Shown: positions 2,440-5,010 of the stretch, piece by piece
Position numbering within the stretch: position 1 is the first letter of the stretch
Layout of the letters: every line of letters starts with the position of its first letter
NCBI GenBank assembly: GCA_022823185.1
Contig: JAJDXQ010000015.1
Coordinates: forward strand, 159,645-223,644
Direction: 5' to 3'
DNA: 64,000 bases
Source of the DNA: Caldilineaceae bacterium
GTDB lineage: Bacteria; Chloroflexota; Anaerolineae; Caldilineales; Caldilineaceae
Notes under the pieces: model-generated
Databases searched by the model: none
Told to the model about the DNA's origin: nothing
The model's input: only the letters and a program-made list of their open reading frames with translations
Program-made: the position numbers and the translations under genes

Positions 2440-2779
2440 CAAGAAGGTGCGCAGTGCTTCCTGCCCCCGTAGCTCAGAGGATAGAGCAGAGGTTTCCTAA
2501 ACGTGCGCCATGTAACGGCGTGACACCATGTCCGAAAGGTCGGACACAAGTACAGGAGCAATTGTAGGTCAACTGCCCAACCGGACTCCGAAAGGAGGTA
2601 AGGGAAAATAGCATGGCAGTAAAGGCGGAATGCAGAATTGCCATGAATTTCAGCAGGTTCGCCAAGACCTGCGCCCTAAGATTAAGACTAAACTGTTTGA
2701 ATCTCAGATTCCACTAAGCCTAAAAAACCAGCTTGCGGGAAGCATGGCTGAAACCCGCATCCCCAAGTTCAAGCTCAGG

Positions 2780-2786
2780 GTTTAGG
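2780..2786 (+). other. EBS1 of the group II intron
   Basis: GTTTAGG is the exact reverse complement of CCTAAAC at 2496-2502, the last seven bases of the 5' tRNA exon (IBS1). This complementarity, read directly, indicates that the intron targets this site rather than having been carried here by chance rearrangement. Confidence 0.8.
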
Positions 2787-3013
2787 AGCTTGATGTCCTG
2801 ACAACGGGGATAGACCTGCAAATCCAGCAGGGCAAGGAATCGAACGAGAAATCTAAGGGGCGCCGGAGGTGTCACGAGCGGAACATGGGAAAGCCTAACA
2901 GCCGAAAGGCTTATGGCTTCGGAGTTCCCATAGTAGTCAGAGAGTGGGAAAACCACTTACAAGGCGAAGGGGAACAGGTGTGATTCGACGATGAGAAAAG
3001 CAAGGTATGCGAA

Positions 3014-4840
3014 ATGCAGAATTCCGAAGCTGTACTCAGAGTCTATAGCGAAAGAGGGAAGGAGGGAAAACCCCTAAATCGACTGTACCGACAGCTTTTC
3101 AATCCGGAATTGTACTGGGAAGCGTACAACAGTATCTACGCCAACCTTGGCGCAAGAACCAATGGCGCGAGCGAAGATACACTCGATGGCATGTCGAAGA
3201 AACGCATAGACAATATCATTGAGAAAATAAAACGGGAAACCTATAGATGGAATCCGGTACGTAGAACATACACTCCAAAAACCGATGGCAGGCGGAGGCC
3301 ACTGGGAGTCCCATCAGGGGACGATAAGCTACTGCAAGCCACGATGAAAATGCTGCTGGAAGCCTACTACGAGCCAACGTTCAGCGATCGAAGTCACGGA
3401 TTCAGGCCGAAAAGAGGTTGCCACACCGCCCTGATCCAGATCAGCAAAATGCACACGGGCGTAAACTGGTTCATTGAAGGCGATATCAAAGGTTGCTTCG
3501 ACAACATTGACCACGAATCCCTGCTGGGAATCCTGGGAAACAGGATCGAAGACGGCAGAATGCTGAGGCTCATCAGCAACCTGCTGAACGCGGGATATTT
3601 GGAAGACTGGGCTTACAATGAAACGCCAAGCGGAACACCGCAAGGTGGAATCATCAGCCCGCTACTCACCAACATCTATATGGATGTACTGGACAAATGG
3701 GTAGAAAATGAGCTTCTCCCCCGCTACAACCGCAGTCGAAAAAGTCGGGGAAACGGAAAGCTGTGTGGGCGAAGATTAAACCCCGAATACACAAAATTGA
3801 CCAGGCAAATCACAGTTTCTGAGAAAAACGGGGACATAATCAGCGCCAAATCGCTCCGCAAAATGAGAAACGAAATTCCATCCGGAGACCCAACCGACGA
3901 CGGGTATCGAAAGCTGGAATACATCAGATATGCGGACGACTTCCTGTTGAGCTTCGCAGGCCCAAAAAGCGAGGCAAGGGAAATTAGAGAGGAAATCAGA
4001 AAGTTTCTGCAAGACAGGCTGAAGCTGGAACTGTCCGAGGAAAAGACCCTGATAACCCACGCCAAGACACAGAGCGCCAGATTCTTGGGATATGATCTGA
4101 GAGTTATGCACTCAAGCCAAATCCGAACAATCAACGGAAAAATGTGGCTTGGAATCCCGCCAGAAGTAATCAGGAAGAACATGAGAAAGTACATGGTGGA
4201 CGGAAAGCCGGGAACAAGAACATACCTGGAAGAGAACTCCGATTACGCCATCATAACAACCTATCAAGTGGAATATGTAGGGTTGGTTCAGTACTACATC
4301 ATGGCGCACAACTTGCGAAAACTGACACGGGTAAACTGGGCGGTCAGGACATCCTTGCTGAAAACACTGGCAAGCAAGCACAAAAGTTCCGTCACAAAGA
4401 TGGCGCAAAAGTACGCGGCCACCTTAAAGAAGAATGGCCGCAACTACAAAGTGCTTGAAGTCACTGTAGAAAGAACAGGCAAGAAACCGCTCATTGCACG
4501 ATACGGGGCAACCCCTCTAACTCGAAACCCGAATCCCGCAGAAATCAAGGACACGACGCCAACTGTCTACGGAAGGCGAACAGATTTGATCGATAGAATC
4601 AAATCGGATGTGTGCGAGATGTGCGGGGAAAATGGGCAGACGGAAGTTCACCATGTGAGAAAGCTGAAAGACCTGACAAGGCCGGGCAGAAAACCAAAGC
4701 CCGCGTGGGTCAAGAGGATGGCGGCGTTGAGACGCAAAACATTGGTAACGTGCAAAACGTGCCACAGAGCTATCCACAATGGAGAACACCGTCCAGAATG
4801 GGACGCTAACACGATCGCACTGGAGAGCCGAATGCTATGA
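3014..4840 (+). CDS. ltrA: Group II intron reverse transcriptase/maturase with HNH domain
   Basis: A 608-residue intron-encoded protein. The reverse-transcriptase domain covers roughly residues 60-370, with the YADD active site at 306-309 and the upstream motif GTPQGGIISPLLTNIYMD. The maturase X domain follows at about 390-500. The C-terminal HNH endonuclease has paired CxxC motifs (Cys 534/537 and a later CKTCHRAIH) and EVHHVRK. The protein would help splice the intron and, as an RNP, drive homing by nicking and target-primed reverse transcription. Its codons differ from the neighbours: many AGA and AGG arginines where host genes use CGC. The stop codon lies inside catalytic domain V of the ribozyme. 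The ATG at 3014 has only a weak upstream AAGGT. Confidence 0.95.
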   Translation: MQNSEAVLRVYSERGKEGKPLNRLYRQLFNPELYWEAYNSIYANLGARTNGASEDTLDGMSKKRIDNIIEKIKRETYRWNPVRRTYTPKTDGRRRPLGVPSGDDKLLQATMKMLLEAYYEPTFSDRSHGFRPKRGCHTALIQISKMHTGVNWFIEGDIKGCFDNIDHESLLGILGNRIEDGRMLRLISNLLNAGYLEDWAYNETPSGTPQGGIISPLLTNIYMDVLDKWVENELLPRYNRSRKSRGNGKLCGRRLNPEYTKLTRQITVSEKNGDIISAKSLRKMRNEIPSGDPTDDGYRKLEYIRYADDFLLSFAGPKSEAREIREEIRKFLQDRLKLELSEEKTLITHAKTQSARFLGYDLRVMHSSQIRTINGKMWLGIPPEVIRKNMRKYMVDGKPGTRTYLEENSDYAIITTYQVEYVGLVQYYIMAHNLRKLTRVNWAVRTSLLKTLASKHKSSVTKMAQKYAATLKKNGRNYKVLEVTVERTGKKPLIARYGATPLTRNPNPAEIKDTTPTVYGRRTDLIDRIKSDVCEMCGENGQTEVHHVRKLKDLTRPGRKPKPAWVKRMAALRRKTLVTCKTCHRAIHNGEHRPEWDANTIALESRML

Positions 4841-4858
4841 AAGTAGCACGTTCGGTTC
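4825..4858 (+). ncRNA. Group II intron domain V
   Basis: A 34-base hairpin with the canonical features. The lower stem is GAGCCGAA/TTCGGTTC and contains the AGC catalytic triad at 4826-4828. A two-base CG bulge follows on the 3' side, then a six-pair upper stem with a GAAA tetraloop. The maturase frame ends here: its last codons AGC-CGA-ATG-CTA-TGA overlap the triad, stem and loop, so the catalytic core is also coding sequence. Confidence 0.9.
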
Positions 4859-4986
4859 GGAGGGGGATTGTAGGAAAAGTGCTTTCAGCAACTCGTCTGC
4901 AATCTACCCTACCTTTGGCCGTAGGTTCGACTCCTACCGGGGGCGCTCTTCTTCCCCACAATTCAGAGGCAATTTGGTAACGAAAA

Positions 4987-5010
4987 AGAGAGTCGCGTCC
5001 GCGACTCTCT
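4987..5010 (-). terminator. Rho-independent terminator of the M81 gene
   Basis: AGAGAGTCGCG (4987-4997) and CGCGACTCTCT (5000-5010) form an 11-base inverted repeat. Read on the minus strand the hairpin is followed by TTTTCG, about 30 bases after the M81 stop. It may also stop transcription coming from the tRNA side, although that side has no T tract. Confidence 0.8.

Follow-up and report, generated by a model that had tools for sequence, protein, structure and literature searches.

Can a bacterial transfer RNA (tRNA) be made from a gene that a mobile group II intron splits in the anticodon stem? The question is raised by a stretch of 64,000 nucleotides (nt) from a Caldilineaceae bacterium (assembly GCA_022823185.1, contig JAJDXQ010000015.1, positions 159,645 to 223,644 of the forward strand), in which a 2410-nt group II intron interrupts a tRNA-Arg(CCU) gene. 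We refer to the whole stretch as the window, and positions are counted from its first letter; the features described below lie on the + strand, unless noted otherwise. The insertion itself, the intact parts of the ribozyme, the intact protein gene, and the complementarity of exon-binding site 1 (EBS1) and of the delta base to the exons are seen directly in the sequence. We consider it likely that this is a mobile LtrA-type intron in the sole tRNA-Arg(CCU) gene found, and that the precursor is spliced to the mature tRNA with the intron's own maturase.

A group II intron in a tRNA gene

Joining the 5' exon (2463–2502, tRNA nt 1–40, identical in 13 same-genus genomes) to the 3' exon (4913–4945, nt 41–73, CCA not encoded) gives 73 nt that ARAGORN calls as tRNA-Arg(cct), a cloverleaf with seven acceptor pairs; no tRNA is reported by this program in the unspliced window. 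A location in the anticodon stem had been proposed in an earlier interpretation based on the letters and open reading frames (ORFs) of the stretch, hereafter the sequence-only reading; the insertion point is at tRNA position 40^41, on the 3' side of this stem. It should be noted that the last base of the 5' exon and the last base of the intron are both C, and the splice joint could thus be shifted by one base with the spliced tRNA unchanged; this ambiguity is settled by the intron ends, GTGCG...AY.

The intron (2503–4912) is in sense orientation to the tRNA, starts with GTGCG and ends with CTAC. The Rfam model Intron_gpII (RF00029, positions 1–77) matches domains V and VI at 4823–4912 with 68.2 bits (gathering score 40), and the match ends exactly at the 3' exon border (4912), whereas no group I family of Rfam matches the window at gathering score. 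Domain V occupies 4825–4858 and was found by the pattern search as well (locus L163). Domain VI (4861–4910) of group II introns carries a bulged branch A, seven or eight nt from the 3' end; in the predicted fold, A4906 is the single bulged base of the 3' strand and the seventh base from the intron end, and is the predicted branch point.

We compared both ends and the 5' domains with those of related introns. GTGCG is located 509–514 nt before the protein in 17 of 80 relatives (511 nt in the window), in a listing that covered 470–560 nt before the protein; the other relatives have it elsewhere in that range or beyond. CTAC falls within the last nine bases in 17 of the 18 introns compared, and the Rfam match ends at AC in 16 of them (the exceptions are L086 and L101). 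For domains I–III and the start of domain IV (2503–3013), the 18-sequence consensus structure contains 111 pairs; for 93 of these, one or more of the sequences differ on both sides and still pair. Taken together, the comparison with 17–21 related introns fixes both intron ends and supports a covarying domain I–III fold. The sequence-only reading had staked the group II identity on the two ends, a domain V and the presence of a domain I–III fold in 2503–3013, and on all of these points it agrees with the comparative data.

The ORF at 3014–4840 encodes a protein of 608 amino acids with matches to RVT_1, Intron_maturas2 and AI2M-like_HNH, i.e., a reverse transcriptase (RT, with the motif YADD), maturase X and an HNH endonuclease, which bears out the RT/maturase noticed earlier. 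The protein is colinear with LtrA and aligns with it over residues 7–587 (422.7 bits); its score for the NCBIfam model group_II_RT_mat is 274.1, below the cut-off of 300. The RT/X/HNH protein and the delta pairing described below point to an LtrA-type intron, which we take to be of the IIA-like subgroup. The host genome contains one copy of the intron protein and one domain V.

Exon recognition and the target site

EBS1 (GUUUAGG, 2780–2786) is found in the loop of the hairpin 2769–2793, with its last base in the stem. All seven bases pair with intron-binding site 1 (IBS1; CCUAAAC, 2496–2502, tRNA positions 34–40), which covers the anticodon and the remaining loop bases and reaches two bases into the 3' side of the anticodon stem. 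The location of EBS1, intron position 278, agrees with that in relatives: in most of 22 loci, the best pairing to the intron's own 5' exon is near intron positions 265–281. The summed score of exon pairing at intron positions 264–282 is 121 for the 22 loci; when the exons were shuffled among the loci 2000 times, the score averaged 66.7 and never exceeded 87.5. The window has the highest single score (8.0). Directly 5' of EBS1, G2779 (delta) is complementary to C4913, with which the 3' exon starts; the equivalent pairing is possible in 15 of 18 introns (not in L086, L095 and L104), a count that includes L090, L096 and L121, where the placement of EBS1 is poor, and that was reached by 1 of 5000 shuffles. 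Full complementarity of EBS1 to the last seven bases of the 5' exon and a G upstream of it that matches the C of the 3' exon were both part of the sequence-only reading, and both hold when the intron family is used as a control.

The second recognition element is likely to be AAACC at 2725–2729 (EBS2, read from the sequence; intron positions 223–227), which pairs 5/5 with the likely IBS2 (GGUUU, 2491–2495, tRNA positions 29–33). It adjoins intron positions 218–222, a stretch at which pairing to exon base -7 or -8 is possible in many relatives; the window has one extra base just at this site in the intron alignment (A2). IBS1 and the likely IBS2 together would form the target GGUUUCCUAAAC, tRNA positions 29–40. 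These 12 nt occur exactly once in the host genome. An uninterrupted 13-nt site is present in 31 of the 34 loci examined in the host family, and the three loci that do not have it (L057, L058 and L061) have UCU anticodons, as read from the alignment.

Empty sites and the host genome

The host genome (5.17 Mb, 46 contigs) is 99.29% complete, with 3.48% contamination. There are 46 tRNA matches in it, and ARAGORN on the fetched loci yielded 45 distinct sequences, with the Arg anticodons CCG, GCG (as ARAGORN prints), TCG and TCT. The sequence-only reading had called for a search for a second, uninterrupted tRNA-Arg(CCU) gene in this genome and for empty sites in relatives. No second gene was found in the host genome by the tRNA search combined with ARAGORN on the fetched loci, and in a search with the spliced tRNA, the only matches besides the two exon halves were the genes with the anticodons UCU and CCG. 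Empty sites are common: an uninterrupted tRNA-Arg(CCU) is present in 15 of the 16 other genomes of the genus, with a copy identical to the spliced tRNA (73/73) in 13 of them and 97% identical in two; the sixteenth genome (81% complete) gave only a UCU match. Both outcomes favour the sequence-only reading. All 15 empty sites are syntenic, with flanks that align to the window, the nearest being L045 and L046 at 92–95% identity. The exons are identical to those of the 13 siblings over 73/73 positions, although the flanking DNA is mostly 72–84% identical. The exact empty sites show an insertion, but not its mechanism (retrohoming).

These comparisons also bear on the possibility that an intron-containing contig was joined to the tRNA gene by an assembly or binning artefact. 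The genome is a draft in 46 contigs; however, the locus lies on a contig of 223,644 bases, the alignment of both flanks to the nearest siblings (92–95%) extends as far as the splice points, and the intron's own EBS1 is complementary to the 5' exon. We therefore regard an artefact as extremely unlikely.

Several side observations were made in these genomes. In L045 and L046, the uninterrupted tRNA is altered just after the insertion point (CTTGAGCC for CTTTGGCC), and the interrupted copy keeps the common sequence. Four genomes of genus g2, in which the tRNA match ended at nt 41, looked interrupted; their tRNAs proved to be intact. In the host genome, ARAGORN assigned no amino acid to a tRNA-like gene (G000:C23:67523-67595, L080). 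A tRNA-Ile(GAU) gene was not found in the host genome, although it is located between 16S and 23S ribosomal RNA (rRNA) in the three siblings examined; an rRNA operon is therefore probably missing from the assembly.

Related introns and searches for other tRNA-resident copies

Among 80 relatives from named genomes, the closest intron is L083, from a Caldilineaceae bacterium (protein 57% identical). A protein encoded in the neighbourhood of the intron likewise has its nearest relative with an organism name in a Caldilineaceae bacterium (84%), so that the host probably belongs to this family of the Chloroflexota. The nearest intron protein overall, P0002, is 81% identical and comes from a contig of 2560 bases. 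Within the genus, six introns (L190–L193, L195 and L220, with L195 and L220 from one genome) have proteins that are 60–64% identical and reside at one site in genes of the single-strand binding protein (SSB) in five genomes; the SSB gene was confirmed by Pfam for L190 and read by eye for the others. They interrupt the gene at GRDPEMR^YTPSG or similar, so that a housekeeping-type gene is a recurrent home, and they share the GTGCGCC start and the CTACCCTAC end with the tRNA intron. Judging by these flanks, the intron family enters housekeeping-type genes in this genus. Another same-genus intron, L194 (protein 58% identical), is in a gene that looks MazG-like by eye; its insertion site is common to L083, and the two genomes may represent the same or very close organisms. 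L219, a second copy in genome G013 (protein 57% identical), has no domain V by pattern. Elsewhere, the interrupted frames resemble genes of mobile elements: the intron of L105 is in a recombinase gene (Pfam), and helicase-like, TraG-like and RT-like host frames were recognized by eye for L085, L088, L090, L109 and L101. As a side observation, the 5' exon of L089, L093 and L101 looks like another reverse transcriptase, and a second domain V is nearby in L093 and L101; nested group II introns are possible in these three loci.

When the flanks of the 80 named-genome relatives and of 4 of 26 viral relatives were joined and submitted to ARAGORN, only the window gave a tRNA; the other 22 viral relatives are mostly partial or distant. 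There was enough flanking sequence in 74 of the 80 relatives (too little in L098, L108, L136, L137, L143 and L154), L091 and L123 were also of odd length, and 25 of the 80, having no domain V by pattern, were run with looser 3' ends. Similarly, no tRNA resulted from the joined flanks of the same-genus copies (L190–L195, L198, L219 and L220) and of the same-class copies L196 and L197.

We also used two sequence patterns. Their reach is limited to insertions at this tRNA site or to introns with this 3' end, and introns of other types in other tRNAs would escape them. The pattern of the 5' junction had the window as its sole exact match in 400 genomes of the phylum (own genome included); with one or two mismatches, 79 of the 400 genomes had any match, which by eye is no more frequent than in the reversed-pattern control. 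Twenty loci retrieved with this pattern, one of them the window's own, gave no tRNA by ARAGORN, a result that excludes only intact tRNAs. The pattern of the 3' end and T arm matched seven times in 346 genomes of the class (own genome included), with a domain V only in the window's match, and in viral contigs no domain V was found by pattern in 80 loci among the matches listed. The failure to find a second tRNA-resident copy among the relatives and genomes searched is consistent with the view that tRNA genes of bacteria rarely harbour group II introns.

Predicted splicing, tRNA folding and alternative explanations

Two features flank the gene. A promoter-like sequence, TTGACC-17-TATCGT, lies upstream of the tRNA (2411–2439); the consensus scan gave 2 matches in the region versus 1.4 expected by chance, and both hexamers recur unchanged in 9/9 sibling loci compared. 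On the 3' side, a 10-bp inverted repeat read from the sequence (4988–5009, no strand assigned) is a possible terminator without a T tract; it is not among the matches of the terminator scan, and a similar repeat is found in the siblings L045 and L046.

A pathway can be proposed from these elements. The tRNA promoter (TTGACC/TATCGT) would produce a precursor of ~2.5 kb, from which the maturase would be translated. In this precursor, the three remaining bases on the 3' side of the anticodon stem (C41 U42 U43) would be 2.4 kb away, leaving tRNA positions 29–40 free for EBS2 and EBS1. A4906 would attack C2502^G2503, after which C2502 would be joined to C4913. Formation of the anticodon stem by the joined exons would detach them from EBS1 and EBS2, and ribonuclease P, 3' trimming and CCA addition would complete the tRNA. 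The excised lariat with its protein would be able to retrohome into uninterrupted tRNA-Arg(CCU) genes.

The anticodon stem in the precursor is without most of its 3' strand, and because of this the conflict between splicing and tRNA folding, raised in the sequence-only reading, may be an advantage. We estimated its size with ViennaRNA, using short sequences in which an A30 linker served as a mimic of the precursor and the intron itself was left out of the model. The predicted cost of opening the 12 nt of the target is 7.2 kcal/mol for the spliced tRNA versus 2.2–2.3 kcal/mol for the 5' half or the precursor mimic; for IBS1 alone, the values are 4.3 versus 0.1–0.5 kcal/mol. When 23 loci are compared, the folding gain over 12 nt is the highest in the window (4.87 kcal/mol; the next values are 4.25 and 3.82). 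In this model, folding of the tRNA hides the intron target after ligation, which suggests that the product could be spared from reopening.

Such reopening is relevant because the spliced Ll.LtrB intron was shown to rebind and reopen the ligated exons of its messenger RNA (mRNA) through EBS–IBS pairing (PMC6003770). In bacteria, housekeeping genes are described as largely free of group II introns (PMC4424553 and PMC6003770), and reopening of ligated exons is one explanation for this pattern. We tentatively suggest that a single-copy bacterial tRNA has been made dependent on ribozyme splicing and that its fold acts as a ratchet, with positions 29–40 exposed in the precursor and buried in the ligated tRNA, such that the excised intron could not reopen its product as Ll.LtrB does; we regard this as possible rather than probable.

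Several observations weigh against splicing to a functional tRNA, or against the protective role of its fold. EBS1 pairing is weak in 4 of the 22 loci (L083, L090, L096 and L121), and five loci (L085, L087, L100, L101 and L103) have several GTGYG starts, one of which was chosen by length or by pairing, leaning towards pairing. The site 2725–2729 is not among the four best-scoring EBS2 sites of the window, the top one being GAAACC at intron position 248. The folding gain over IBS1 alone places the window third of 23 (3.81 kcal/mol, after L121 with 4.56 and L105 with 4.02, the two protein-gene loci that come near it over 12 nt); burial after ligation is thus predicted but would not be unique to a tRNA. 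Finally, tRNA-Arg(UCU) is present in the host genome and may read AGG by wobble, and the intron is found in 1 of 17 genomes of the genus (15 have empty sites, and one, 81% complete, has no CCU tRNA found).

The last points lead to a different explanation, in which a recent retrohoming or retrotransposition event placed the intron in a tRNA gene that the cell can do without; the tRNA would then be largely gone, and AGG would be decoded by tRNA-Arg(UCU). The presence of tRNA-Arg(UCU) and the distribution of the intron are consistent with it, as is the rarity of AGG in the host (100 of 16444 codons in the other long ORFs of the window). Its presence in a single genome out of 17 is compatible with a recent insertion of the intron, and if the insertion is recent, the intact exons would reveal little about function. 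Conversely, the cognate EBS1 and delta pairings are exact, the ribozyme parts and the protein are intact, the exons are without any change compared to 13 siblings, and a CCU tRNA is found in 15 of the 16 other genomes of the genus. We consider the loss of a dispensable tRNA unlikely, and splicing of the precursor to a mature tRNA remains our preferred reading.

Codon usage in the maturase gene pointed to one more possibility, namely that inefficient splicing limits the tRNA supply and thereby regulates AGG decoding, including that of the intron's own AGG-rich gene. This gene has 13 AGG among its 608 codons, compared to the 100 in 16444 codons elsewhere, and is AGG/AGA-rich compared to the host (35 of 59 Arg codons). 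However, AGG richness is common to the relatives, with the window fifth of 75 related intron proteins (those with internal stops left out), and AGG feedback on the maturase was dropped; regulation of this kind appears very improbable.

Comparison with known systems

At the sequence level, the comparisons above give good support to an insertion that is real and unusual: a mobile group II intron, complete in its parts, occupies a tRNA gene found once in a bacterial genome, and its target includes the anticodon. Reviews describe group I introns in bacterial tRNAs (PMC4033280 and PMC3984707) and group II introns in plastid tRNAs (PMC4424553 and PMC8393795), and the available sections of PMC4033280 and PMC4390854 treat group I and group II introns of bacteria in general terms, with no bacterial group II tRNA example. 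In the available part of the survey PMC8919778, there is no mention of a bacterial tRNA gene with an inserted intron. Among the open papers listed by the literature searches, none describes such a group II insertion in its title or abstract opening; the searches covered few subscription papers, so that a report could exist.

The locus places a whole retroelement, with both its ribozyme and its protein, in a kind of bacterial gene for which the sources, in the parts available, report group I introns. The tRNA would be made only after splicing, and according to the prevailing view group II introns keep out of essential genes in bacteria. Because the product's own fold is predicted to hide the IBS, the locus would be a natural test of the reopening explanation. 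If the ratchet reading is true, folded RNA genes would be a safe haven for group II introns.

Three known systems and the same-genus ssb introns can be compared to this locus. Ll.LtrB with LtrA (Lactococcus) has a protein that is colinear over the RT, X and HNH regions, and a GTGCG start. Its EBS1/EBS2/delta recognition scheme corresponds to the one proposed for the tRNA intron, in which EBS2 is likely. The ssb introns differ in interrupting the gene of the single-strand binding protein and not a tRNA gene. Ll.LtrB differs likewise, as it resides in a relaxase mRNA gene (PMC6003770), whereas the window intron occupies a tRNA gene and has a target that includes the anticodon. Group I introns of bacterial tRNAs (Leu-UAA, Arg-UCU, fMet and others) are similar in being self-splicing and located at the anticodon (PMC4033280, PMC3984707 and PMC4853749); however, they are a different ribozyme, with the majority at 37/38 next to the anticodon (PMC4033280), and the window lacks a group I match that attains the gathering score. 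In plastids, too, group II introns lie inside tRNA genes (trnK with matK, and others; PMC8393795 and PMC4424553). They are organellar, whereas this locus belongs to a nearly complete 5.17-Mb bacterial genome (99.29%), and it is a possible bacterial parallel to plastid trnK/matK.

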